Assembly: GCA_009841255.1 (NCBI GenBank)
Contig: VXMD01000078.1
Span: forward strand, 32,464-68,462
Direction of reading: 5' to 3'
Length of the DNA: 35,999 nt
DNA from: Candidatus Poribacteria bacterium
GTDB lineage: Bacteria; Poribacteria; WGA-4E; WGA-3G
Shown here: positions 4,051-19,888 of the stretch, piece after piece
Layout: each line of letters opens with the position of its first letter
How positions within the stretch are numbered: position 1 is the stretch's first letter
Made by a program: the position numbers and the translations under genes
The notes under the pieces: generated by a model
What the model saw: the letters and a program-made list of their open reading frames with translations, nothing else
Told to the model about the DNA's origin: nothing
Databases searched by the model: none

Positions 4051-4260
4051 CGAGTACGCCGCAAAACTGTTGGTTTGGGTTTCCTTGTGGGAGGCGTGCT
4101 TTGCTTGGGTGTTTCTGCAAAGAAACCGTCCTGACTTTGGTGAGGAGGTGATGATAGGATTGTGAAATTTGCATTAACCTTTAGAAACCCAGTCACAGTA
4201 TGGGTTTATCGGGTATCGGTGGCGTGAGTGAATTTTGGGTTTACTGTGAAACTATCGATA

Positions 4261-4475
4261 TGTTGAAATATGTATAACAGAATACGTAATATTTTCTTTC
4301 TGAAGGCGCGGTTAACCCTTTAAAAATGTTACACTGGTGTAACATTTGGTGTACAAATAGGATCGGCAGAGAACCCAGTAACCGTAAGGGTTCAGGGGCG
4401 TTTTTTTTCTCAGTTTCGGATGTAAAAAAAATAATTTGGTGGAAAGTGTAACATTTTTATTTTATGCGAAGATGA
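4261..4475. repeat. About 214-bp direct repeat, copy A
   Basis: This block recurs at 5720-5933 with high similarity, so the two copies bracket the Rpn-like cluster. Inside is a 133-bp unit (4324-4456) bounded by 11-bp inverted ends AAATGTTACAC and GTGTAACATTT. The left end is itself half of a 24-bp palindrome (4324-4347). A hairpin GAACCC/GGGTTC (4371-4393) is followed by eight T residues at 4401-4408, resembling an intrinsic terminator on the plus strand. It could be a MITE or a small-RNA cassette. Confidence 0.75.
4371..4408 (+). terminator. Terminator-like hairpin with T tract in repeat copy A
   Basis: A 6-bp stem GAACCC/GGGTTC with an 11-nt loop is followed, after GC-rich AGGGGCG, by an eight-T run. 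The homologous hairpin in copy B (5830-5852) keeps the stem while the loop differs. No plus-strand gene lies upstream, so it may end a small RNA or be part of the repeat's own structure. Confidence 0.35.
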
Positions 4476-4500
4476 GTTTTTTCGGTAATTGGGCATATGT
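4470..4500 (-). pseudogene. Remnant of the 5' end of a DUF1156 methyltransferase gene
   Basis: Read on the minus strand this stretch gives ATGCCCAATTACCG followed by six A and CTCATC. It matches the first codons of the methyltransferase at 13926 (MPNYRKKLI) except for one missing A in the A run. The match stops at CTCATC and the sequence then passes into repeat copy A. It appears to be a fragment carried along when the Rpn-methyltransferase junction was copied. Confidence 0.75.
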
Positions 4501-4725
4501 TTATTGAATCAGTTTTTGTGCGAAGGCTTGGATGCTACGTGCGTGAATTGACTGGATATAAAGATCCTTGAGTCGTTCCAGATCGTCTATATTTTCAAGT
4601 GCAGGCCTTAAGGCATCCACAAGCTCTGTCGAGAACTTCGTTTTAAGAACGACCGAGATGTGTCTAATAGTCGTTTCTTTGGTAATCCTCTCGTGTAGAT
4701 GTTGGTAACCCTTAGATTCTTGCAT
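4501..4725 (-). pseudogene. Duplicated C-terminal module (B) of an Rpn-like protein
   Basis: A 74-residue frame starting MQESKGYQ and containing ALENIDDLERLKDL and AFAQKLIQ. It is a diverged second copy of the C-terminal module of the gene immediately upstream (4744-5595). It lies in the same reading frame as that gene, separated only by a TGA and six codons that resemble RIPEEL before the first module. It probably arose by tandem duplication of the last ~75 codons. It may be translated on its own, be read through to, or be dead. Ends in TAA. Confidence 0.6.
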
Positions 4726-4743
4726 GTGTCCCTCGGGTATGCG

Positions 4744-5595
4744 TCAGTCAATCAGTTTTTGTGCGAAATTTTCGATGTTCGGCACTCGAGGTGCTGCCAG
4801 AAGGAGTTCCTTAAGCCGTTCCAAATCATCAATGTTTTGGAGCATAGGCGTTAAGGCACGCACCGCCTCTGTGTGAAATTGCTGTTCAAGCAGGGCGATG
4901 ATGTGCTCGATAGTATTCTCTCTCAGCATGAGTTGGTAAAATTTAGATTCTTGCATGAGTTCCTCCGGTATACGTCTTTTGAAAAGTTGAGGGTCATACA
5001 CTATACTTCCAAAAAGGGAAATTGCGTAAAGTAAATCGGCCTGTGTTTGCTGATCGACAGGCGCTGTGCGCGTTGCATCAATACACGCTTGCACCCAGTG
5101 CTCTGGGTCCATGCCCGTGGGCGGTTTCATGAGCGGTGTGAAGGGCAGTATACCCGGGGTCTGTATCTCTAAAACCGCCTGCCCTTCTATTTCAATGAGC
5201 CGGATGACTTTATAGCGATTAGTGTGTTCGTAGCCGTTCCACTCGTAAGTGTATCCGCCTGGATCATTCCTGCCCGCGTTGGGGTGAAAGTAGATAACGT
5301 TGGAATAGACGGGTATCTGATGTTCACCGACAAGGTATCCTTGATATTGCGCGTTCCGTGCTCACATCGGTTTGCGAGTGCTATCGCGGAGCTGCAATTC
5401 GACGTGTAGGATTACCTCTTGCTTGTTGACGCGGACGCGTTTTGTGATATCGGTCTGCCGAGCGATAACGGTCTGTTGCTCGGTGTCAAGGTCTTCGATG
5501 ACTTCGACATCTTCCTCGCCAAGTACAAATCTCGAAAGGTCGACGGCGTGATCTGCCCATAAACTTTTCCCCAAATTGTCGTAGTCTTGTGCCAT
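4744..5595 (-). pseudogene. Rpn-type PD-(D/E)XK nuclease-like protein, interrupted by one in-frame TGA
   Basis: The frame from ATG 5595 (MAQDYDNLGKSLW) to TGA 4744 spans 284 codons with a single internal TGA at 5364-5362, after STRKPM. Codons after it continue in the same frame (ARNAQYQGYLVGEHQIPVYS) without a shift. From what I recall of the family, the residue there is Trp (PMWAR). The N-terminal part has the VILHVELQLRDS strand expected of the Rpn/YhgA-like nuclease fold (ExQ variant); the C-terminal part has the helical MQESK...FAQKLID module. Rpn proteins are linked to recombination and transposase-like nuclease activity. The start is preceded by TTGACA-18-TACACT directly abutting the ATG. 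A homologous broken copy lies at 13930-14681. Family call is moderate. Confidence 0.6.
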
Positions 5596-5601
5596 GGATA
5601 T

Positions 5602-5631
5602 AGTGTACCTCAACACGTGAAGGAATGTCAA
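5602..5631 (-). promoter_or_regulatory. Promoter of Rpn-like locus 1 (weak -10)
   Basis: On the minus strand TTGACA (5631-5626) is followed by an 18-base spacer and TACACT (5607-5602), then six bases and ATG 5595. The arrangement matches the locus 2 promoter at 14688-14717, where the -10 is a perfect TATAAT, so this copy seems to have decayed. Confidence 0.55.
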
Positions 5632-5719
5632 GCAAATGTCGGCAGAATCATCAAGTGAGCGATCGAGTGTGTAAAGTTTTTAACGTGCGCTTATCAGGAG
5701 TGAGTCCTGTAGCATAAAC

Positions 5720-5933
5720 TGTTAGAATGTATATAACATAACGCGTAATATTTTCTGTCTGAAGGAGCGGTTAACCCTCTGAAAATGTTACACTGGTGTA
5801 ACATTTGGTGTACAAAGGAGATCGGAAGAGAACCCAGTGCCTGTAAGGGTTCAGGGGCTTTCTTTTTCTTATCTTCGGATGTGAAAAAAATAATTTAGTG
5901 GAAAGTGTAACATTTTCTCCTACGCGAAAATGA
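5720..5933. repeat. About 214-bp direct repeat, copy B
   Basis: Second copy of the block at 4261-4475. It contains the 24-bp palindrome AAATGTTACAC-TG-GTGTAACATTT (5783-5806), the hairpin GAACCC/GGGTTC (5830-5852) and a third GTGTAACATTT at 5905-5915. The distance from palindrome start to the last arm is 133 bp in both copies. No gene is seen in 5632-6079. Confidence 0.75.
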
Positions 5934-6079
5934 ATCGTTTGAACAGTGCTAACCTTGACTAAAAATTATCTAAATGTTATTTTTTTTGAACTATCCGACC
6001 TCTACACTTTTAGGCGTGAGATCTGGTGATTTCGTGAACGTTCCATGAATCGTCATGAACAGTAGCAAAGTGTTCAAGG

Positions 6080-9000
6080 TCAATCCTCTAGATCGGGTAA
6101 AACAAATCTACCCGAATTGAGCAGGTTTTCACGGATGAGTTTTGTCTTCGAACGGACACTTTCGTCCTTGCTTTCACGTCCCGCTTTCAGAATTGCGTTT
6201 GCTACCTCTTTCTGGATGTAGATATTGTCTTTTTTGGTTCCCTCGGTTAACTTAAAGAAGCACTCAACTACCATCTCGGTATGATTTGGAAGCATTTCAC
6301 ACAATGTTTTAACATGAATCCCCCAATCCTCTACTTTACATATATCCAAGACTTTAGAATATGTCTTCAATCGCCATTCAGTGCTTAGACACTCGGCTTG
6401 CAACCATGTAGTAAAATATCGAAGTTCAGTCGGTTCTTCAAATCTGAGACGCCAGTCACAGAATTTTCTTGCTCTATCTTCTGTATTTTGGTTTAGGTCT
6501 TTTCCAGTATTCCACAGACGATGACCTATATAGTTGAACAAATTAGCCCAATGCTTTTTACCTGTTTGTTGGTAAAATCGTTCAAGCAAGCTTTCTTGAC
6601 CTTCAAGTGGAAACATATCCAACAGGTAATAGTGGAACAGGCGTTCACCCAGGACCGTAATCGGTTCGCGACCCCCTTGATTGCGATTTTTAATGTCTCT
6701 TAGATGTTGCAGCGCAAAATTGAAGTCGTCTTTAAGAATCTTAAAGATAGGCTTGGATGCTCCATTGCCGAGCACGAAACTACTAAATGCCGCCGCCCAC
6801 TCGGGGAGTTTACTCTGTGGGAAAAAGTCTGATTTGTGCTCGATTGCCCATGTCTCATTGAGACTGCAAATCCAAGGATAATTTTTCCCCAGAATGGCAT
6901 ACTCTGGCAGCGTTAAAGGGTAATTGGTCTCCGGCGAAAAGCGTTTTTCGAGAATTGTTGTCACTTCGGGAATATTGGGGTCTGAATCGTGATCCCGCAG
7001 CCAGAAACCGAATGTGATCAGATTCTCCAGTGCTCGGCTTCGGGTATTATTGATACCTTCGGTAAGTGGATCGTATTGATTCATGACTTTCAGGTGGTTC
7101 TCATCTAATCGCCGATCATGTTGTGTGCAGATCGTTTCTAAAAGTTTGGCTAATTGTTCTCGGGCAACAATAGGGACATCTACCTCCTTTTCAAAGCAGA
7201 CACCGATAAAGTCGCCGACTGCGCGTCGCGAATTAGACCACTGTGGGTTCTCTCTGGATTCATCGCCGAGTTTGTAGTCTGCATTATGCTCTCGGTCAGG
7301 ATGTGAAAGTACCCACTCATAGAAGGTCAACCATTCATTCAGTTGATTGAAGTTCTTTTCCTTTACGTGTGCTTGCATTGCATAAATCATCATCCGCACG
7401 TAAATGGGACGTTCAATTCTTTCACCATTTTCCATCCAGAATCGGAGTCTGTTGGTGTCAGGAATGATCGACTCTTTGAAAAGAGTCTGAAAAGTGTTGG
7501 CAAGTGCTTCAATATTTATTTTTACAAATGAGTCGTGTTCGGCGATCTCATCTTCTGTTTCCCATTCGTTTATGCGTGCAAGCAACTGCTCATCCGTGAG
7601 ATTGGCGAGGTCTTCGAGCAAGTATGGACTACGATTAGACACGGCTCCAACCTTTACTCCAAATGGTGGGTAGTTTTCATCGGAAATCCGATCGTCTGCT
7701 TTACTTTCCAACTCTTGGAAGTAAGTTTTATATTCGTCAAATAGCACAGAGGCAAAGGGTGTAAGTTGCTGTCGATGGAAATAATGTTGGCGTTTCTGAA
7801 AAAGTTCCTCGGTGAATTTCTCTCCCAGCCATTCTCGGAAATCATCTTTTGGTGGACCACTGCGGATAGCATCAAAGATTCGTGTTCGTTCCTCTTTAGT
7901 GAGTAACGTTTCCTTGAAGTGATCACAGGCCTGTCGTATCATCTGTTGGAATTCGTAAGAGTGTTCTGACTGATGATAATCTTTACGCTCCAAAATCAAT
8001 TCTCGTATCCACGGTTTTGTGCTTTCATTTGGATATTGCGAGTAAAGATGCTGGCGTAAGCGTTTGAAAATTTTCCATTTCTGCTTTCGCAACAACTTGT
8101 CCAAATCTGTAATTGCGTCATGTGATTTTTCAAAGACCTTCTCACAAGCAAAAGTCAATGTATGAACAAGCGTTTCATCCGGATTGCCATAATCTTTTTC
8201 TGGTATATGTAAGCGTGCAAACCAGATATTAGAAAAATCTTGTGCTTTATCAAACTCATCCTGATGTATTCGCAAACTCAACATATTTGATGTGGCATAA
8301 ATAAGGAGGCGTGCCACTTCACAGGGGTCCATTTGGGCAAGAGGACAAACTCCCTTAGTCATTATCTCGGAGTATTCCCAATGGTTGAATCGGGCAGATG
8401 GATGAAGTAGAGTACCCCAACTCATAGGATTTTCTTTTCGCCGCTTTTGCTTTTCCTTTAATCTTGGATCAGGAACAAACGCAACGAGAATTTTTGATAG
8501 TTCTAATGCGTCCGATATTTGATTTTCCTTTGTCCAATGTGCCAATAAGTCCGCATATCTATAGGTTCGAGATGGGTACTCCATACCTATAGGTTCAAGT
8601 ATTTTAGGCTTAAGTTTCGCAGACTGTTCTCCATGGAGCTGCAACGCGATGTCCAAAACCCCATCATAAACTCTTGGGTTATCAATTTTGGGAAGTTGTA
8701 ACACAATTTCAATGGCAGCATCCGGTACTTGACTGGAAATTTTCGCCAGATAACGTATTGGCCACCACAGAGGAAAAATCACTTGACCGTCACCGATTGG
8801 CTCCACGCTTGATGGATGTTTGAAATAGTCCCTTTTTTCGAGTTCAGGTAACCAACTGACATCTGTGATTTCGGCTATTTGCTGGAAAAAGAAAACCGAG
8901 TTTGCACCTCTACGCTCAATTAGTGAGAACATACGTTCAACATCGTTCTCAGATCTGTCAGGGGACCTTAAAATCGTTTGAATTTCTTCTTGATCTTGTG

Positions 9001-9622
9001 CGGTTATGGGAGCAAGAAGATCAAATATTGTGTTTTCCAGTTCTTTCAAGCAGTTGCTAAACTCTACAATGTCCGTGTTGCTATTGTGATGGGTAAAACG
9101 TTCAAAACTCTGCCATAAACGAAGTAACTGATTTCGTTTCCTTTCTTGAATCTCACTGTCCAATGAATTAGCCATCGGATCAATAGTTGCTACTGCCTGT
9201 TGTATTCGTTCTCCCCGAGTTGGCTGCTGGTTACGCTCAAAATAATCTACGACTTTTCTGAGAGTTTTATCCAAATGTGTATTAATTTCTTTATCTTTCC
9301 AGCCTTCAGGATAGCGTTTTTTGTCTTTTAAAATACGATCGTTTATACTACGTCGCATTCCCTTGAAATCAATTGTGCCTATTTGAATATCACTTTCTTG
9401 AACGACTTGCGTGAGTTTTTCGAGAAGTTCGCGTAGTGAGTGGGCTGCCTGGGCGATACGATCAGGGTTATAATGGTTATCCAACGCGTAGAGCGCGCCA
9501 AGGTACCAGTCGCTTAGTGGATATTCGTCTGTTTGCTTGTTTTGTAATGCTTCCAAAACATTCCGTTGTTGATCGGTTAGCACCATAGGTGTGGAAATGT
9601 TAGGACTCTCAAGTGATTGCAT
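6080..9622 (-). CDS. Large helical protein of unknown function (1180 aa), defence-island neighbour
   Basis: I do not recognise a characterised family. The sequence is rich in charged helices with many Trp residues and lacks a signal peptide, a membrane segment or a Walker A motif. Residues about 240-330 contain a recognisable block (SVFFFQQIAEITDVSWLPEL, then FPLWWPIRYLAKISSQVPDA) that I associate with large hypothetical proteins in other bacteria, suggesting a helical-repeat scaffold. The ATG at 9622 has GGAGAA seven bases upstream. It ends in TGA followed one codon later by another TGA. It lies between a GIY-YIG gene and an Rpn-like relic in the accessory island. It could be a sensor or scaffold in defence, but that is inference from position only. 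Confidence 0.85.
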   Translation of the reverse strand: MQSLESPNISTPMVLTDQQRNVLEALQNKQTDEYPLSDWYLGALYALDNHYNPDRIAQAAHSLRELLEKLTQVVQESDIQIGTIDFKGMRRSINDRILKDKKRYPEGWKDKEINTHLDKTLRKVVDYFERNQQPTRGERIQQAVATIDPMANSLDSEIQERKRNQLLRLWQSFERFTHHNSNTDIVEFSNCLKELENTIFDLLAPITAQDQEEIQTILRSPDRSENDVERMFSLIERRGANSVFFFQQIAEITDVSWLPELEKRDYFKHPSSVEPIGDGQVIFPLWWPIRYLAKISSQVPDAAIEIVLQLPKIDNPRVYDGVLDIALQLHGEQSAKLKPKILEPIGMEYPSRTYRYADLLAHWTKENQISDALELSKILVAFVPDPRLKEKQKRRKENPMSWGTLLHPSARFNHWEYSEIMTKGVCPLAQMDPCEVARLLIYATSNMLSLRIHQDEFDKAQDFSNIWFARLHIPEKDYGNPDETLVHTLTFACEKVFEKSHDAITDLDKLLRKQKWKIFKRLRQHLYSQYPNESTKPWIRELILERKDYHQSEHSYEFQQMIRQACDHFKETLLTKEERTRIFDAIRSGPPKDDFREWLGEKFTEELFQKRQHYFHRQQLTPFASVLFDEYKTYFQELESKADDRISDENYPPFGVKVGAVSNRSPYLLEDLANLTDEQLLARINEWETEDEIAEHDSFVKINIEALANTFQTLFKESIIPDTNRLRFWMENGERIERPIYVRMMIYAMQAHVKEKNFNQLNEWLTFYEWVLSHPDREHNADYKLGDESRENPQWSNSRRAVGDFIGVCFEKEVDVPIVAREQLAKLLETICTQHDRRLDENHLKVMNQYDPLTEGINNTRSRALENLITFGFWLRDHDSDPNIPEVTTILEKRFSPETNYPLTLPEYAILGKNYPWICSLNETWAIEHKSDFFPQSKLPEWAAAFSSFVLGNGASKPIFKILKDDFNFALQHLRDIKNRNQGGREPITVLGERLFHYYLLDMFPLEGQESLLERFYQQTGKKHWANLFNYIGHRLWNTGKDLNQNTEDRARKFCDWRLRFEEPTELRYFTTWLQAECLSTEWRLKTYSKVLDICKVEDWGIHVKTLCEMLPNHTEMVVECFFKLTEGTKKDNIYIQKEVANAILKAGRESKDESVRSKTKLIRENLLNSGRFVLPDLED

Positions 9623-10046: not shown

Positions 10047-10424
10047 TTAAGATTTGTCAGGGTTCATTTTCAGGTTGGTCTTGGGCTTCCACTCACGGAT
10101 GAGTTCGGTTTCTAAAAATACTGTCTCCTCCGCGTTCTCTGTGAATTCTACAGAAAATTGGACGATTGACCTGAACATTCGGAGTTGTGAGTGGAGTCCG
10201 TCATTTTGTGCGTTTGAATAGTGCTGCAACAATCGCCTTCGCACGCAAGTTGTGGATTCACCAACGTAGAGGCACTCGTTCCGTCCCTGGGTGCCGGTTT
10301 TCCGCCATAACACGTATACCCCGCTGCGTCCGGTCGGTAATTGCTGGATATCTTCGCGCGTGAAGGGACGGAGGTTGCGCTTGAGTTGATATTGGAGGAC
10401 GTAGAGGGTAACAGGGTCGGACAT
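10047..10424 (-). CDS. GIY-YIG nuclease family protein
   Basis: A 125-residue single-domain protein with the GIY-YIG fold. The two signature strands are GVY (residues 35-37) and LYVG (52-55), followed by the catalytic-helix Arg cluster (CVRRRLLQH, 61-68), a conserved Glu near 105-107 (FLETELIREWKPKTN) and a final Asn. Small stand-alone members of this family are nucleases of varied roles, from mobile elements to repair; the specific role is not readable. It follows the coiled-coil gene at 10539 and may share its transcript, though a hairpin repeat lies between. The start at 10424 has only a weak ribosome site. Ends in TAA. Confidence 0.8.
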   Translation of the reverse strand: MSDPVTLYVLQYQLKRNLRPFTREDIQQLPTGRSGVYVLWRKTGTQGRNECLYVGESTTCVRRRLLQHYSNAQNDGLHSQLRMFRSIVQFSVEFTENAEETVFLETELIREWKPKTNLKMNPDKS

Positions 10425-11136: not shown

Positions 11137-13926
11137 CTACAACATTAATTGCTCGGGTGATCCCATGGATTGCGAAATGTATTGCCACTGGGTTACGAGG
11201 TTGTTATAGTGTGCTGCGCTTTGGGCATCGCCGCGGGATTCATAGTAGGCGTATAGGAGACGTGCCAGACGTTTTGCGGATTCGTAGTCGTTCATGGAAC
11301 GGGCAACGGTAGTGCATCCAGAGACACCGCCGCTTCTTTCTACACCTGAGAGATGCCACACCATCCGCGAGCACCCCTCCCATGCCTTCATCTCTTCACT
11401 ATTTTCACGATCGGCGTATTCTTCGCCTCTCAGTAACCGAACCTGACCACGGCCTCTGAGCAATACTTTGTTGTGCATGGTGTTGATGTCCACATCTTTC
11501 GCTGTTGCTAACACCAGGGCATCGCCGAAATTGCCTTCCGTGTAGCCGTGCTGCTGGAGCCATGTTAAGCAAAACTGGCTCTCTGAATCCAATTCGCCGG
11601 TCTCTTTTTCATGGTAAGCCGTAATTTCCCTATTGATTTCCTTGAGTACCTCACGTATCGGCACAATCTCACCGCTGATTCGTGTTACCTTGTTATAACG
11701 GGAGTAGATCTCCATGCCCGGTCCGATGGCGGCTTGTGCAAGGTCTACAGGTCTAATGTTGGCGATGCGTGTGAGTTTGTCAAGTGCCGGGGGCATCTCC
11801 TTTTTCAGTTCTTGTAGGAAATCGTCGCGTACAATAATTGGCGCGTTCTCAGAACGCGGGCGACATACCAATACAATAGAAGATGCCAGTGCGTTTTTAT
11901 TTGTCTTAAGTGCTTTGGGTTGTTCTGTGCGCATCGGCCAAGTGCCAACGATTTGAAAACCTGCATTGACAATTGCTGTGAGCATTGTTTCCCATCCAGT
12001 AGAGGTTTTTCCATCCTGGTCTTCTTCTTGTTGTCTATAGGCGTAAAAGATGGAAGTAGGAAACTCGTTGGAGCAGTATTCGCGCAGTCGCAGTAGTGTC
12101 TTGCTCAGTAATTCTTCAAAGTGTCGCGTGGGATCTTCAAACCGCGGCGCGGCAACTATTTCTTCCTCCTTTGGGGTCATCATGCCTCCAAACAATTCTG
12201 GGTAGGTATCCCGTAGCATGGGCCTCAGCCAAACATAGAAAAAATCGGACAAATCGGCGTAGCCGATGTTGTCGTAGTAGGGCGGATCGGTAACGATAAC
12301 GGGGCTATGGGTAGCATGCAATGTGGCAACAGCATCTGCCTGATACACCTCTCCCATGTTTGCGGAAGTAGTCAAGTTTTCAATCACCTTTGCAATCCAT
12401 TCCACTTGTGCCATCCAATTCTGTGTTGTCTTAGAGAATGGATTTGTTTCGGCAAAACTCCAACTCATGTTAATTACTTGACGCGTAAAAATAGTCCTAA
12501 CTACCTCATCTGTATCTTGCCACCAAGCAAAGGAACATCCGCTCTCAGCCAACCTTCCAATAGCAAGAGACAGGTAGATACAAATTGCAGAGGCATAGTC
12601 GGAAGAAGCACCATCCTGCATCATTTGATTATGAGTTTCACCTAGGGCATCGCCAAAGAGCTTCAGGGCAGTTAACTGACGTTCGCTGAAAAGTTGATGC
12701 CATTGTGTGATTCCATACCCCTGGACCCTGAATCCCAAGGCTTGATGTGGCAGTTTACCCTTCGGTCGCCAAGGGGATTCGACAGACTGTGTTGCTTGAA
12801 TATCCTCATCCGTGGGCGGCAAGAACAGTTTTCTGCGATTACCCTCGGCGACCACTGTTGTCATTATTGTTTTCATTTTCCCTGCTTTCGCCCGTTCACG
12901 TACATAAGGCAATTTGACTGCACTGCCACAAGCGATGCAGGAAGTGCCGTTTTTGTTTACTGTACCGGTCTTCGGAACTCCTTCATCATTGGTTTGCACA
13001 ACCCATGAAATTGTGTTTGATTCTCTATTAACAACGGGTTTAACCCAATGCTCGTTGCCTTTCTTTTTCGATAGTTGAAACGTTTTTATCAGGGGCATCT
13101 GGAGACCGCAAGCAGGATTGGCACACGGCACCGAGCGTGCCCACAACCACGCCACCACGGTTGCAGAGGTGCCATCGGGAAGTTGCGCTTTCGGGTAGAG
13201 GTGCCCAATCCGCTTGTATGTCTCCTCGCGCATCCAAGCACCGTAGTAGCGGATATCATCTGCCAAGCCTGCAGTACCTTTCCATGGAACGCGCTGTTTC
13301 CTTCTGCCTGTGCCGGTGAATATTCCCATTGGATCTGCATCAGGGTTGACGGGTTTCTGGTTGTGGAACTTCGGGGGCAGTTCAATCATCGCTTTGTTGA
13401 GCAGGACGGGGAGCGGATTGAGATCGGAGGCGCGGGCGCGTAATCCTAAACGTTGTGCTTCAAGGGGGATGGAGCCGCCGCCACAAAACGGGTCGTAGAC
13501 AGCGGGGCAGTGGTCGCGGAGGTATTCAAGGATAGCTTTGGGATCGTTTTCAAATTTCATCCGAAAGTCAGTTAGATTTTCACCGTTATTGCGTGCAACA
13601 GAATATGCGATTTCATAGCGTGCCTCTGCCAAGAGGTTTTCGTCGTTGCAAGTTTTCCATATCACGAGTCGCTTCATGAGGTTGTGGAGTCGGGTGCGTT
13701 CTGCGTTCTGTTCGGGTTCGGTTGGGAATTCGTCTTTGCATTCGGAGGGATCGTCTACCATACTCGCGAAAATGACTGCCCGGCATGCTGCGAGAGGACG
13801 GCGTGCCCAATAGCGGTGGAGTGTGGATGGGTGACCATGTGTGAGGGAAGCGTCTTTTGCGGACTCTACGTTGATGGCTTGGAGAGGGATGTTAACCTCG
13901 ATGAGTTTTTTTCGGTAATTGGGCAT
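11137..13926 (-). CDS. DUF1156 DNA methyltransferase
   Basis: A 929-residue predicted adenine-specific DNA methyltransferase. The N-terminal DUF1156 block is clear (KKLIEVNIPLQAIN, then HPSTLHRYWARRPLAACRAV). The AdoMet site is DPFCGGGS at 145-152 and the catalytic motif IV is DPPYYDN at 547-553; motif I precedes motif IV. Two Cys pairs (C268/C273 and C330/C333) probably form an inserted zinc ribbon. DUF1156 enzymes occur with DUF499 ATPases, and usually a helicase, in predicted phage-defence clusters. Here the ATPase is upstream at 14839, with an Rpn-like relic between. The preceding frame ends TGA-CGT-ATG, so the start is three bases after, and in frame with, the relic's stop. Ends in TAG. 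Confidence 0.92.
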   Translation of the reverse strand: MPNYRKKLIEVNIPLQAINVESAKDASLTHGHPSTLHRYWARRPLAACRAVIFASMVDDPSECKDEFPTEPEQNAERTRLHNLMKRLVIWKTCNDENLLAEARYEIAYSVARNNGENLTDFRMKFENDPKAILEYLRDHCPAVYDPFCGGGSIPLEAQRLGLRARASDLNPLPVLLNKAMIELPPKFHNQKPVNPDADPMGIFTGTGRRKQRVPWKGTAGLADDIRYYGAWMREETYKRIGHLYPKAQLPDGTSATVVAWLWARSVPCANPACGLQMPLIKTFQLSKKKGNEHWVKPVVNRESNTISWVVQTNDEGVPKTGTVNKNGTSCIACGSAVKLPYVRERAKAGKMKTIMTTVVAEGNRRKLFLPPTDEDIQATQSVESPWRPKGKLPHQALGFRVQGYGITQWHQLFSERQLTALKLFGDALGETHNQMMQDGASSDYASAICIYLSLAIGRLAESGCSFAWWQDTDEVVRTIFTRQVINMSWSFAETNPFSKTTQNWMAQVEWIAKVIENLTTSANMGEVYQADAVATLHATHSPVIVTDPPYYDNIGYADLSDFFYVWLRPMLRDTYPELFGGMMTPKEEEIVAAPRFEDPTRHFEELLSKTLLRLREYCSNEFPTSIFYAYRQQEEDQDGKTSTGWETMLTAIVNAGFQIVGTWPMRTEQPKALKTNKNALASSIVLVCRPRSENAPIIVRDDFLQELKKEMPPALDKLTRIANIRPVDLAQAAIGPGMEIYSRYNKVTRISGEIVPIREVLKEINREITAYHEKETGELDSESQFCLTWLQQHGYTEGNFGDALVLATAKDVDINTMHNKVLLRGRGQVRLLRGEEYADRENSEEMKAWEGCSRMVWHLSGVERSGGVSGCTTVARSMNDYESAKRLARLLYAYYESRGDAQSAAHYNNLVTQWQYISQSMGSPEQLML

Positions 13927-13929
13927 ACG

Positions 13930-14142
13930 TCAGTCAATTAGTTTTTGTGCGAAATTTTCGATACTCGGCACTCGAGCTGCTGCGAGATGAAGTTCCTTAA
14001 GTCGTTCCAAATCATCAATGTTTTGGAGCATGGGTGTTAAGGCACGCACCGCTTCTGTGTGAAATTGCAGTTCAAGCAGAGCGATGATGTGCTCGATAGT
14101 ATTCTCTCTCAGCATGAGTTGGTAAAATTTAGATTCTTGCAT
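13930..14142 (-). pseudogene. Duplicated C-terminal module (B') of Rpn-like locus 2
   Basis: A 70-residue frame from MQESKFYQ to FAQKLID. It is the same at 66 of 70 positions as the C-terminal module A of locus 1 (within 4744-5595), but is clearly different from the module just upstream at 14162. Its TGA stop is followed by CGT and then the methyltransferase ATG, all in one frame. It may act as a short leader for the methyltransferase or be a relic. Confidence 0.65.
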
Positions 14143-14161
14143 GAGTTCCTATTGCATGCTT

Positions 14162-14681
14162 CTATTCGTGTAACATCTGTGCAAAGGCTTCAAGGCTTTG
14201 CATATCGGGTACTGCGACTAACAATTGTTTGAGGCGTTCCAAATCATTAATATTCTGGAGTGCAGGTGTTAAGGCACTCACCTCCTCTGTATGGAACCGC
14301 TTTTTAAGCAAAGCCAGAGTATTTTCGATGGTAGTTTGTCTGGCAGCTCTTTCCATTTGGCGTTGGTAGGTTTTAGATTCTTGCATAAGTTCCTCCGGTA
14401 TGAGTCGGTCTAACAATTCAGCGTTATAGACGATCCCACCAAAGACAGAGATTCGGTTTGCGAGTGCTGTCGCGGAGTTGCAATTCGACGTGTAGGATTG
14501 CAACTTGATTGTTGACGCGGACGCGTTTTACAATGTCGGTCTGCCGAGAAATAACCGTCTGTTGTCCGGTGTCAAGGTCTGCGATGACTTCGACATTTTC
14601 CTGACCGAGTACGAATCTGGAGAGGTCGAGGGCGTGGTCTGTCCATAAACTTTTTCCGATGTTGTCGTAGTCTTGTGCCAT
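14162..14681 (-). pseudogene. Rpn-type nuclease-like gene with an internal deletion and frameshift
   Basis: The N-terminal part starts at ATG 14681 (MAQDYDNIGKSLW) and runs in frame to STRKP, then continues out of frame to a stop near 14424. The C-terminal part (ISVFGGIVYNAELLDRLIPEEL, then the MQESK module) is in another frame up to TAG 14162. Compared with the homologue at 4744-5595, about 345 bases between STRKP and the SLFGSIVY segment are missing, and the join shifts the frame. The nuclease core is therefore incomplete. It sits between the DUF499 ATPase and the DUF1156 methyltransferase, as if inserted into their operon. Confidence 0.65.
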
Positions 14682-14687
14682 GGTTGT

Positions 14688-14717
14688 ATTATACCGTGAA
14701 GCGGTGGAAAATGTCAA
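14688..14717 (-). promoter_or_regulatory. Strong promoter abutting the Rpn-like locus 2 start
   Basis: On the minus strand TTGACA (14717-14712), an 18-base spacer and a perfect TATAAT (14693-14688) are followed by only six bases before ATG 14681. Transcription would begin at or next to the start codon, giving a leaderless message. This promoter could also drive the downstream methyltransferase. Confidence 0.7.
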
Positions 14718-14838
14718 GCGGATTTGAAATGGCACAGGCTCACAAGTCTATGCTACGAAGCGACCCAAACTAAAAGTTTGTGCTACAAAGAGGATGCACA
14801 GGAGACTCATAGCCTTATGCTACAAAAACTATAGACTT

Positions 14839-17800
14839 TTAGTTGCTCTCGAATTCGGCGTTGAGGTGTTCGCTGTTTTGCTTTACGGCGCGGGTGGTGT
14901 TTTCGGAAAAGCCGTCCGATTTATTGGCAGTAACGGTAATTTCGATTTTCACATTTCCGCCATCGGCTTGGAGGGTGCGAGCGATTTCGTCCTGTAAGGT
15001 TTCTATTTCGTCCATGAAGGGCAATTCTAACTGCAAGGCTTTGGTAACAACGACATGGGTAGGTCCCTGTGATGGTGGCGGTTCGACGACAATATCGGTT
15101 GAGTCGTCTGTCGCTTGTTTTTTTGTGGTTGAGGCTGATTCGGAGGGGTCCGGTTTGTGCTCTTTTTCTTTTTCCTCTTTGATCAGTTTTGCCATCTCAG
15201 GGTTTATGAGGACGGCTGTGCTACCTTCAGCCACTCGGAGCCCACCAATCTGTTCTTCAAAACGGAAGTTGCGATAGTCGTTCCCCTCATAAGCACTGGC
15301 GTATCCGAAGGTGCCTGCTGTGATTCCTTCTCTAATGCACGTTGCTAAAACACTTCGGTCTCGCAGCCGTGGCATATAGACGTTTTGTGCCATGAGTTCC
15401 CAGAGCGTATCCAAGCCGATGTGCTCTTGATAGGTATCGCTGCTCCAGATGTATTGCTGCAATTGTGTCGAGAAGATTTCAGGCGCTATTTTTGTGATGA
15501 TTGCGTCGTCTTCAACAAATTTGTCGCGGAGCCGACTGATGATTCTACGATCATCAACTTTTGCATCAGCGATAGAGAAGTCGTAGGTGTTCTTCTGCGG
15601 GTCTGCTTGCGTGGGAGCGAGTGTCCATCGGTATGCCTTGAAGATCGCCGTTGTTACCGCATCCTCAGCGGATTCGAGGTTTTCCGTGGTTTGGTCTAAC
15701 CTTGCTCCTTGAAGCGTGGTGAGAGCACTGTTTAGAACATCCCCGTTCATGATAGAGTTCCACGCGAGGTACTTTTTAACAAGATTTATGAGGTCTCGGA
15801 TAGCGTCTCGCCGTGGGGCAATGAAGAGCAGTGTGTTCCTGAAGGTGCGCTGTCGATCATCCTCCGCGCTGTATGTAAGGATGTGGCGTGCTGTATCACT
15901 GGCTATATCCGTCTCCTTTTCGCGGCTCGGAAGGGAGGCCTGGGGATGGAGGATAACGTATTGAATCGTTTCGGAATCTTTGACGGTACTTGGCGAGATT
16001 GGACAAACCTGCACACTCGGATCGCGTCCGATGGCTCTTTCCAACCGTGAAACGATCTCAGCATAGATATCTGTGTCGGTATATTCCGCAGCGCGATCTA
16101 TAGCGACCTTGTTGAGGTTCTCCTGGGTGTGGAAGTAATATCTATCGTCAAGATTATAGAGGAAGTAGAGGTTGCCACTCATTCTGCTGAGGGCATCATT
16201 GTAAACGGCGACCCCTTGTCCGGGTTCAACAACCCCGAGGTGAATTTGACGATTCGTGATGCCTTTGACCGCGCCCCCTGTGGCACTTCCAAGGAAGATG
16301 GTGCGTGCGGTTCTGCGTGCTGCGTTGCCTATCTCAATGAAACTTTGAGAGCTCCTATCGATCTGTTCAGTGCGGGAACCGTGGCTGTCTATCTCTTGGA
16401 CAATGGGATCCCAATGTCCACCGGATCTTGCGAGCAGTCTCGTGAATTCATCGGCGAGTGCCGGATCATCAAGTGTAAGGTTCGCGGGCATTATCAGCAG
16501 AGAGGGGTCCTGTTCTTGGTAGAGTCGGGAGATACAGGTTGCCATCATCCGCAGCACGCCGCGGGTGCGTTGAAATCCAGGAATTACTGCCCAGTCTTGG
16601 GAAAGCCTGTCAAATACCTCCGGGTGTATCGGGTAGCAGTCTTTCATACGCTGTAAGTAGCGTTGATCATTGACACCTTCGGGGTATTCGTTGCGCGAGT
16701 TCTGGTACATCCTTCTAAACGCTTCACAAGTTAGGTCTCGCTCTGTCTCATCAATTACACTCCCGAACAATCGCCTCCGCACAACCTCATAAGCGTTGTC
16801 CATTTCTAAAGGTATTGAGACAGCGTCAACTCTTTCAAGGATAGATTCGAGTGCTTCAAGGACACTTAACCCGCCTTCTCCGCCTGCGTGCGTTTGTCCT
16901 TCTGGTAAGGTAGCGATGAGCGTAACGTTTTCAGATCTCTTGACGGACTCCGTAACGGCTTGAAAGAAGGTGTAGATACTTTCTCGTGTGACACCTTGGA
17001 CGTTGCGGACGTAAGCAACAAGTTCATCTATTAAGATGACAGAGGGCCCGACGTATTCAAAGAGGGCGTCCAATTGATTTCCGCCGGGGGCTGTGCCTTC
17101 GCGTGCGGCTTTTCTGATAAGATTATACCCATCTTGCCCACCGAGTTGATCCGCCATCATGCCCCAAAGGGTATTGAGCGGGTCTCCCTGTTTGGTCTCG
17201 TCTGCATCGGTGGTGGAGAGGTAGGTGCCGACGAGGACAGAAATGTTAGTATTAAGGGGTGTATCGGTATCCCATTCTGCTTCCGCCAGGATGTCCTCTA
17301 TTTCTTTCCGCAGTCGCGCATATGGACCGTCTGCTGGAAGTTCTCTCAGGATGTTAATTCCAGTAACAAGGTGATAAAGAGCGATGAGGCTATGGGTTTT
17401 GCCACCTCCGAAACCTGTTTTGAGTTGGATAACTGGGTTACCGCCTTTGCCACCAAGTCTTCTGAGCGTATTTACCAACAATTCTCGGAGTCCGGGGGTG
17501 ATGTAGGTCTGATTGAAGAAGATTTCGGTTTCGCCGTATTCTGGTGTTTTTGCTTTTCCTTCAAAAACCTCTTGGAGGTCGGCGGCGAATTCGGATTTTC
17601 GAAAGGTGCCTTCGATAACATCTGTGTTGGGGCGTATGACATCACGCCATGATTTGAGGTCGGATGCCTTTCTACGCGGTAGTTTCGGTTTCGGGTCTAC
17701 AGTTGGTGCCGCGCGGGTGAGTAATGTGTCGCGAATGGCTTCAACTTCTCGCTTCTGGTCGGGGGCATTGATTTGCCCAAGTACATCTGCAATGTCGTGG

Positions 17801-18120
17801 AGCCGTGAAAGGGCGTAGCTGAGATCGATGTCTTCCGTTCCAGGGTGCGAAACCTGATTTCGCGCTTCCGTTACAATGCCTACAGCACTGCGAACATCGC
17901 GATCGGGATCGAAACGTCGTTCAAAGGCATTGTGCCAATATCTTCTGAAGAGGTGTGGGAAGTCGCCAATATCTATATCTGCTTCGTTTTGGAAACGCTC
18001 TTCCGGGGATAAGCCTTGCCCTGTTTTCAGGTTTCTGAGAATGAAGGGACGCATGGCATCGCGGTAGATGTTGAGTGCTTGGTAGAGTGCGTCTTGATTT
18101 GGGCGTTTGGGCGAATTCAC
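14839..18120 (-). CDS. Swt1-HEPN/DUF499 family ATPase
   Basis: A 1093-residue ATPase. The first ~135 residues resemble the Swt1-type HEPN domain, with the RxxxxH motif at Arg87-His92 (RNQVSH). The DUF499 ATPase follows: Walker A GFGGGKT at 236-242 and Walker B VILIDEL around Asp365-Glu366. The C-terminus is charged and low in complexity. DUF499 proteins are found with DUF1156 methyltransferases in predicted phage-defence clusters; the partner is at 11137-13926 downstream. HEPN motifs often mark RNases, which would fit a toxic effector, though this is inference. The start is GTG at 18120, with GGAG about 14 bases upstream and a good promoter at 18155-18183. Ends in TAA. Confidence 0.88.
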   Translation of the reverse strand: MNSPKRPNQDALYQALNIYRDAMRPFILRNLKTGQGLSPEERFQNEADIDIGDFPHLFRRYWHNAFERRFDPDRDVRSAVGIVTEARNQVSHPGTEDIDLSYALSRLHDIADVLGQINAPDQKREVEAIRDTLLTRAAPTVDPKPKLPRRKASDLKSWRDVIRPNTDVIEGTFRKSEFAADLQEVFEGKAKTPEYGETEIFFNQTYITPGLRELLVNTLRRLGGKGGNPVIQLKTGFGGGKTHSLIALYHLVTGINILRELPADGPYARLRKEIEDILAEAEWDTDTPLNTNISVLVGTYLSTTDADETKQGDPLNTLWGMMADQLGGQDGYNLIRKAAREGTAPGGNQLDALFEYVGPSVILIDELVAYVRNVQGVTRESIYTFFQAVTESVKRSENVTLIATLPEGQTHAGGEGGLSVLEALESILERVDAVSIPLEMDNAYEVVRRRLFGSVIDETERDLTCEAFRRMYQNSRNEYPEGVNDQRYLQRMKDCYPIHPEVFDRLSQDWAVIPGFQRTRGVLRMMATCISRLYQEQDPSLLIMPANLTLDDPALADEFTRLLARSGGHWDPIVQEIDSHGSRTEQIDRSSQSFIEIGNAARRTARTIFLGSATGGAVKGITNRQIHLGVVEPGQGVAVYNDALSRMSGNLYFLYNLDDRYYFHTQENLNKVAIDRAAEYTDTDIYAEIVSRLERAIGRDPSVQVCPISPSTVKDSETIQYVILHPQASLPSREKETDIASDTARHILTYSAEDDRQRTFRNTLLFIAPRRDAIRDLINLVKKYLAWNSIMNGDVLNSALTTLQGARLDQTTENLESAEDAVTTAIFKAYRWTLAPTQADPQKNTYDFSIADAKVDDRRIISRLRDKFVEDDAIITKIAPEIFSTQLQQYIWSSDTYQEHIGLDTLWELMAQNVYMPRLRDRSVLATCIREGITAGTFGYASAYEGNDYRNFRFEEQIGGLRVAEGSTAVLINPEMAKLIKEEKEKEHKPDPSESASTTKKQATDDSTDIVVEPPPSQGPTHVVVTKALQLELPFMDEIETLQDEIARTLQADGGNVKIEITVTANKSDGFSENTTRAVKQNSEHLNAEFESN

Positions 18121-18202: not shown

Positions 18203-18703
18203 CTATTCAAAAATCCAGTTTTCTCTTTTTATTAGATCGACTACCTTGATACATTGAAGGTTAAAATGGGCACAGGCATCGGGAATTTTTGGTCTATTTT
18301 CGCTATTTGTAGGGTTTTCCTCCGTTACAACGATACAGTTTTGGGTAATCATCGCTAGGGCAATAACCCACGGGTCAGCCCCTGATCTTCCAGTTCGGTT
18401 GTCCACCAACCTTGGGAATTCCGATAGAACTTCGCTGACTTTGTCCTGCACTGATTCATCAATTGCTACTTGGAAATCTGGCTTTAATTGATACTCATCA
18501 CACCATTGTTTTATATCTGTATCTCTCATTGCTTCATCGAAAACAATTTGTGACATTTTCAGTCGATCGTTTTTTATCAATTCCTCAATCTTACGTCACA
18601 AAGAAGGGAAGTTTTCGATTGGGTATCGTTCATGAAAGGCGGCAATTAACGCGCTCGTGTCAAGACTGTAAATTATCTGATCATGATTAAGAAATGAATT
18701 CAT
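18203..18703 (-). pseudogene. DUF4411 PIN-like protein, interrupted by one in-frame TGA
   Basis: From ATG 18703 the frame reads MNSFLNHDQIIYSLDTSALI, a PIN-type start with catalytic Asp15, and continues to FPSL before TGA at 18598-18596 (codon 36). The same frame continues without shift through RKIEELIKNDRLKMSQIVF, the Asp-rich SGADPWVIALAM segment and CIVVTEE, ending at TAG 18203. The total of 166 codons is a normal DUF4411 length. The interrupted codon is expected to be Trp (FPSLWRKIEEL). The ATG overlaps the stop of the XRE-ImmA gene (ATGA), typical of a coupled toxin-antitoxin pair. A shorter product could start at an internal ATG (18580) but would lack the catalytic N-terminus. PIN proteins are RNases. 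Confidence 0.75.
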
Positions 18704-19872
18704 GCGAAGATAGTACCCTCAATTTTAGCAAGGTGTTTTGTGTCACAATTGGAAAGAACGGAAGCTAACTCGGCACGTGTGATTTTCTGCTCGTAGTAAG
18801 CCGTGAAAGCAGTTCGTGCGAAATACTCACCGGAGGTATTGAGAAGCCGATTATGATAAGGGACGGCTCCACCTGTTCGCGCTGGGGTGTCCTTGTACTT
18901 TGCCAATTGGCGATTTCTGTACGTTCGATAGTCATGTCGTGAGATTTTTCCAAGGGTCAATAATCTACGCATAATGACTTCAGAACTTACATGGAAGAAT
19001 TTGGAGGTTCCGGATAGCTCCTCTTCCAACATCTCCAAATTTACTATCTTTAACAATTCATCTTCTGGAACTAAAACCTCGGCAGCTACCTGATTGCAGA
19101 AAACCTCAATTGGATCCAAATTGGAGGGGAGAGTTGCTTCAAAATCTGTATTCTGGATAACACTTTCACCGAGTGCAATATGCACCAATTCGTGAATAAG
19201 GGTAAAAATACGACCGTAAGGACTGTCTTTGGGATTTACCACAATCACCGGAAACGGTCTTTGTGCAATGCAAAATCCACGTACTGTTTCCAGTTTAACA
19301 GAGAGATGTGTGTTCACGGAGGTTTGACAGACCAGAATACCTTTTGCTTCGACAGTCTGTTTCCAAAATTTCAGAGCGGCGTGTGGATTATTTGCTTTTT
19401 GTAACTCTGCTCTACTAAATCCGAGAAATTGTGTTATTTTTTGTGCTGCTCGTTTCTTACTTGTCTGTCTATCAAACTTCAGCGTAACCTCAAGCGGTGG
19501 TTCTTCCAACAATTCGTACAATTCGATGAGGGTCTCTCGCCTTTCAAACGCCTCGATGATATTGGCATTTAATCTGTATACCTGTTCTTCATCAATCGCG
19601 AAGTGCTCAGGCAATACCCGATAATCTGTGAGTGGTTGAAAATTAATGGGCGGTTCAGGCAGATAGAAAATAGAGATATGGGTTTTATAGAGTTTCGCGA
19701 TCTTCTTTACCTGTGCAAAGGTGGGTTGCTCCGTACCGCGTTCCCATGCCTCAAGGCGTTCCGGATCTATCTTCAATTTTTTTGCCGCATGGTCGATCTC
19801 TAACTTGATGCGTTTTTCACGCGCCCACTTGAGAACTTCCGGCGTGATGAGTGCTTTGACAGATTTAGCCAT
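18700..19872 (-). CDS. XRE-family HTH with ImmA/IrrE peptidase domain
   Basis: A 390-residue protein. Residues about 10-70 form an XRE-like helix-turn-helix (AAKKLKIDPERLEAWERGTEQPTFAQVKKIAKLY), and the rest is a COG2856-type ImmA/IrrE metallopeptidase with the zinc motif HELVH at 227-231 and a downstream Glu in VAAEVLVPE. Such proteins pair with DUF4411 PIN toxins; here the PIN gene overlaps the stop by ATGA. I start at ATG 19872 rather than 19887 because MAKSVKALITPEVL is the usual family start. A 7+2+7 palindrome just upstream is a candidate self-operator, and a good promoter lies at 20030-20058. It is likely an antitoxin and repressor, possibly degrading or being cleaved on a signal. Confidence 0.88.
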   Translation of the reverse strand: MAKSVKALITPEVLKWAREKRIKLEIDHAAKKLKIDPERLEAWERGTEQPTFAQVKKIAKLYKTHISIFYLPEPPINFQPLTDYRVLPEHFAIDEEQVYRLNANIIEAFERRETLIELYELLEEPPLEVTLKFDRQTSKKRAAQKITQFLGFSRAELQKANNPHAALKFWKQTVEAKGILVCQTSVNTHLSVKLETVRGFCIAQRPFPVIVVNPKDSPYGRIFTLIHELVHIALGESVIQNTDFEATLPSNLDPIEVFCNQVAAEVLVPEDELLKIVNLEMLEEELSGTSKFFHVSSEVIMRRLLTLGKISRHDYRTYRNRQLAKYKDTPARTGGAVPYHNRLLNTSGEYFARTAFTAYYEQKITRAELASVLSNCDTKHLAKIEGTIFA

Positions 19873-19888
19873 GATCTGTATCCCCACG

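Follow-up and report, generated by a model that had tools for sequence, protein, structure and literature searches.

Small bacterial repeats are usually viewed as junk that is tolerated near gene ends. Several described families nevertheless resemble the repeat unit analysed here, beginning with the BOX elements of Streptococcus pneumoniae, which like it are modular, dispersed and intergenic, with inverted ends and predicted stem-loops and without an autonomous copy, and for which effects on downstream genes have been reported (PMC3049150). Correia/NEMIS elements of Neisseria and ERIC/RU-1 elements of enterobacteria are likewise intergenic sequences of 100-160 bp with terminal inverted ends; they are co-transcribed with their neighbours, and Correia elements can carry promoters (PMC2229807). 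REP/REPIN sequences with their TnpAREP share the palindromic, high-copy and extragenic character (PMC3116915; PMC8266576).

The unit considered here lies in a 35,999-nt stretch of a Candidatus Poribacteria genome (contig VXMD01000078.1), referred to below as the window, and its family is a variant of these known small repeats, unusual in how strongly its members are oriented toward genes. The likeness to BOX concerns the modular layout only, as judged from descriptions rather than sequence comparison; BOX elements are enriched between convergent genes and leave target duplications (PMC3049150), whereas the Poribacteria unit is rare at convergent sites, nearly fixed in orientation and often has a consensus promoter as part of the repeat. 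The target duplications and TA ends of Correia/NEMIS and ERIC/RU-1 (PMC2229807) are both unseen in the Poribacteria unit, whose three-arm layout also differs from theirs. Unlike REP/REPIN, it is longer, has three arms, shows no link to Y1 genes and is locked to the 5' side of genes. No earlier description of the repeat in Poribacteria was found in the open-access literature searched; in PMC3909097, the repeat passages located deal with repeat proteins and the word 'intergenic' is absent.

A dispersed three-arm repeat family

The window contains two direct repeats of about 214 bp (4261-4475 and 5720-5933; about 86% identity overall, 87% across 197 nt ungapped), each holding a 133-bp unit with 11-bp inverted ends, as a preliminary description had proposed and as the sequence and copy alignment bear out. 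Copy A (4323-4458) and copy B (5782-5917), both of type 1, lie on the minus strand; this is their sense strand, pointing to the downstream gene. Both follow the layout AAATGTTACAC-NN-GTGTAACATTT...GTGTAACATTT with outer ends 133 bp apart (4324-4456 and 5783-5915). The palindrome AAATGTTACAC-TG-GTGTAACATTT spans 4324-4347 in copy A (arms 4324-4334 and 4337-4347) and 5783-5806 in copy B (arms 5783-5793 and 5796-5806), and the third arm GTGTAACATTT falls at 4446-4456 and 5905-5915, coordinates that confirm the common palindrome and the equal spacing claimed earlier. On the sense-downstream side, both copies continue on the minus strand into the same extension (4261-4322 and 5720-5781), which also accompanies the single copies of the relatives G030 and G017. 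Two occurrences of GTTACACNNGTGTAAC are present in the window, where 0.00 would be expected. An AACCC-N10-GGGTT hairpin is found in the units at the locus, in keeping with the hairpin of the preliminary description; its likening to a terminator was not upheld, as a scan of 4100-6100 for intrinsic terminators (a G+C-rich stem followed by a T run) called none. Rfam covariance models yielded no match in the window at the gathering threshold.

The genome-wide search called for at the outset places the 133-bp unit throughout the genome and the genus, rather than only at this locus with flanks that extend in homology. This genome (G000) holds 28 copies, G031 49, G010 20, G005 19 and G022 16; 35 of the 38 genomes of the genus carry the unit, and none was found in G001, G007 and G018. 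Most genomes of the sister genus g20 also have it, largely as weaker matches, and one further member of the taxonomic family has a single weak match. No unit was found outside that family among the genomes searched, and no exact match occurred in viral contigs. The repeat is a dispersed family confined to one Poribacteria family of sponge-associated genomes, and its dispersal makes the earlier term MITE-like a fair description. Members are non-coding, intergenic and 133-136 bp long with inverted ends of 11-12 bp (about 135-bp repeats). Across 101 copies the arms are 93-100% conserved per position, apart from one outer T at 87%, and the middle drifts. In this genome about 78 of 84 AAATGTTACAC sites lie inside units (control count 5), with two contig ends left over.

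Comparison with other elements places the unit as one type within a larger, modular superfamily whose members differ in their arms and have an AACCC-N-GGGTT core in common. Elements with this core but different arms include TTTCACAGTAA, TTTCAGAGTAA and AAAAGTTACCA; the first of these arm types also occurs in the window on the minus strand at 4155-4260, adjoining copy A, with an AAACCC-N-GGGTTT core. In the sister genus, left arms in G079 are all AAAAGGTTACCG and right arms GGTAACTTT, and G070 combines AATGTTACCA/TGGTAACATT or AATGTTTTCA/TGAAAACATT and has two mosaics. Over 12 distinct arm pairs, 128 cells are paired against 114.7 after shuffling, above all 20,000 shuffles, a result that is suggestive of selection on the hairpin, in RNA or in single-stranded DNA, and is taken no further because the arms were picked by hand. 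Folding z-scores of the sense strand range from -2.3 to -3.6. Within type 1 the arms are invariant, which precludes an RNA covariation or pairing test, and the hairpin pairing there is accompanied by no covariation.

Occupancy varies between genomes. At nuoE, compared in 30 genomes, 14 carry a complete, identically oriented unit and 14 have none; in G002 a unit is about 1.25 kb away, and in G032 only a 20-bp palindrome remnant persists, in which arm 1 meets arm 3. At locus L036, about 0.4 kb with promoter and unit in this genome corresponds to some 17-110 bp in G030, G010, G016 and G023. In a tree of copies, G031 takes 5 label changes against 30.5 after shuffling, this genome contributes a nine-copy cluster, and orthologous pairs are few (e.g., L046/L066 and L031/L062). 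The unit is mobile, or at least gained and lost, and the combination of polymorphic sites and lineage-wise amplification means that the repeat spreads. The search for empty sites and target duplications suggested earlier had a divided outcome: unit-free sites exist, but the orthologous intergenic regions are too divergent for a clean empty site, and no target duplication is visible in the aligned copies. Separately, the units L101 and L102 of G031, which lie on different contigs, have flanks that are identical over 900 bp to either side, representing either segmental duplication of recent date or duplication in the assembly.

Orientation toward genes and its possible explanations

The strongest signal, which the preliminary description had not foreseen, is the orientation lock relative to genes. 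Among 94 units with genes on both sides, as judged from mechanical gene calls, same-direction neighbours run with the minus (sense) strand of the unit in 55 cases and against it in 3 (p = 2e-13), the remaining units lying between divergent (29) or convergent (7) neighbours. Units with a unique downstream flank give 23 with and 0 against.

Promoter-like sequences accompany this orientation. A zero-mismatch TTGACA-N16-18-TATAAT lies sense-upstream of 29 of 97 copies and once on the other strand, and a sigma-70 promoter with at most two mismatches is present in 50 of the 97 regions lying sense-upstream, compared with 13 on the antisense side and 9 after shuffling. Most zero-mismatch promoters come from G031, where the copies are embedded in a shared repeat some 350 bp long, promoter included; outside G031 a clear promoter precedes only about 18 of 58 copies. 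As regards the small RNA suggested in the preliminary description, a strong promoter often stands before the sense strand, but no terminator is called. The distance to the gene is 200-500 bp for many units. Past the unit, some downstream genes (L040 and the broken gene of the window) possess their own promoter, so the effect of the unit need not be uniform. By sequence inspection, the downstream genes are functionally mixed, including nuoE, tatC, xylulokinase, peroxiredoxin and pectate lyase. At the nuoE loci L157, L169 and L171, the unit adjoins a small open reading frame (GTGTAACATTTTATG) without a gap: its last arm is followed immediately by the ATG, so that the hairpin would abut the start codon.

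With their gene-upstream position, fixed orientation and frequent strong promoter, the repeats look less like parts of a composite transposon than like a leader or promoter cassette that spreads. The best reading of the dispersal, site polymorphism, lineage-wise amplification, orientation lock and promoter-like sequences observed, held with somewhat better than even confidence, is a modular, non-autonomous promoter/leader repeat that is retained at sites where it faces into a gene. The longer form would comprise, in order, a strong sigma-70 promoter, a leader of 45-200 bp and the hairpin-ended unit; placement, orientation and promoters together suggest that transcription from this promoter probably continues across the unit and into the following gene. 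The unit would spread, presumably by transposition, through machinery acting in trans, and insertions would persist mainly where the cassette aims into the 5' side of a gene. As a co-transcribed 5' leader it would most likely supply or tune expression of that gene, possibly through an RNA switch or a bound protein. In RNA the 3' arm can pair with either the adjacent or the distant arm, and these two alternative partners would allow a switch.

The alternative that survives best, although unlikely, is a plain selfish MITE, derived from an insertion sequence and functionless, whose orientation bias would arise from the site or manner of insertion or from the harm done by a promoter facing against a gene. 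Terminal inverted arms, a non-coding length below 200 bp, lineage-wise amplification and polymorphic sites all agree with such an element. It fits less well with the lack of visible target duplication and with the 7 of 94 units between convergent genes, the setting in which pneumococcal BOX, RUP and SPRITE are enriched (PMC3049150). An autonomous insertion sequence with the same ends was also sought and rejected: arm sites fall almost exclusively in units and the rest are near the control count, so that no such partner is evident.

A bolder form of the cassette reading, put forward tentatively and with slightly less confidence than the selfish element, would make the repeat a mobile regulatory RNA leader, in which a self-spreading strong promoter and a three-strand hairpin switch would subject tens of unrelated genes in each genome to a common post-initiation control, new arm types arising by compensatory change. 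More doubtful is an operator array, in which a DNA-binding protein would occupy the palindrome and the third half-site and the units would form a regulon spread by recombination. The near-invariant type-1 arms around a drifting middle, and the near-restriction of arm sites to units, would suit a binding site; the mixed functions of the downstream genes, the unusual operator position of the palindrome 45-200 bp past the promoter, and the sister-genus arms that change with pairing kept all speak against one.

Mobilisation of a REP/REPIN-like element by a Y1 (RAYT) transposase acting on single-strand hairpins is very improbable, despite the palindromic ends, the lack of a visible target duplication, the presence of Y1 genes in all 9 genomes tested and a Y1 gene lying some 0.5 kb away from one unit (L035). 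Y1 presence is unrelated to unit number, with 6 Y1 genes in G018 but no unit there; of some 47 Y1 matches, only about 3 are near a unit, and the unit consists of one hairpin and a half-arm in place of two hairpins. The candidate was rejected as the mobiliser.

The broken gene between the two copies

Between copies A and B, all on the minus strand, lie the 5' piece of a broken gene (5362-5631), with its own sigma-70-like promoter (TTGACA at 5631, TACACT ending at 5602), its 3' piece (4744-5130), a second, truncated copy of its 3' end (4507-4745) and a 25-nt fragment of a methyltransferase start (4472-4496). The fragment, which ends about 14 bp from unit A and may be compared with the gene at 13926-11137, was recognised by comparison with G030. 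The identity 'Rpn-like' given to the broken gene in the preliminary description could not be substantiated, its reading frame being interrupted and its pieces matching no family in Pfam or NCBIfam.

Gene order in relatives clarifies how the bracket may have formed. The window reads large gene, unit B, broken Rpn-like gene, 25 nt of methyltransferase start, unit A, type-4 element and solute-binding protein gene. G030 has the large gene, a unit, two type-4 elements, the Rpn-like gene and the methyltransferase start, with its single unit on one side of the Rpn-like gene only. G017 has a homologue of the gene at 10047-10424 of the window, a unit, a type-4 element and the solute-binding protein gene, so a single unit precedes the same downstream gene and the Rpn-like gene is missing. 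From these orders, A and B appear each to front their own neighbour gene, the Rpn-like gene being bracketed because a rearrangement joined two adjacent loci that each carried a unit. The methyltransferase fragment at 4472-4496 would be the breakpoint of this rearrangement and lies outside unit A. Of the recombination via repeats envisaged earlier, rearrangement near units is plausible because the window segment stops within the first 25 nt of the methyltransferase gene near unit A; the cassette carrying a gene is not.

A composite transposon or recombining cassette with the Rpn-like gene between A and B can be dismissed as scarcely credible, for although the gene is flanked by direct repeats and this genome has another gene with a unit on either side (L033), relatives have the gene with a unit on a single side (G030) or the unit without the gene (G017), the breakpoint within the methyltransferase start falls outside unit A, and no target duplication is seen. 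In the second bracket case (L033:2002-2823), two same-direction units enclose a single VOC-family gene.

Other features of the window and its relatives merit record. At 11137-18120, two adjacent proteins have matches to components of the PADLOC Hma defence system, namely HmaB (a DNA-adenine methylase; E 2e-273) and HmaC (an AAA+ ATPase; E 1e-224), and a Dsr1-like protein is encoded at 6080-9622 (E 4e-14), so that the window looks like a defence island. At 18203-19887, a 395-aa protein has weak RmrA/capP-type matches and adjoins a 125-aa protein without a match. In G017, G008 and G024 (L188, L189 and L190), a tRNA-like gene located upstream of an apparent 23S rRNA start has in front of it two or three promoter-like repeats, AAAATAAATTTGAC...TATACT, that are nearly identical to one another.

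Significance for Poribacteria

A repeat family that is nearly always aimed into genes, often with a consensus promoter, would clearly exemplify the rewiring of expression by a repeat in an uncultured phylum; each genome also provides tens of natural test insertions.
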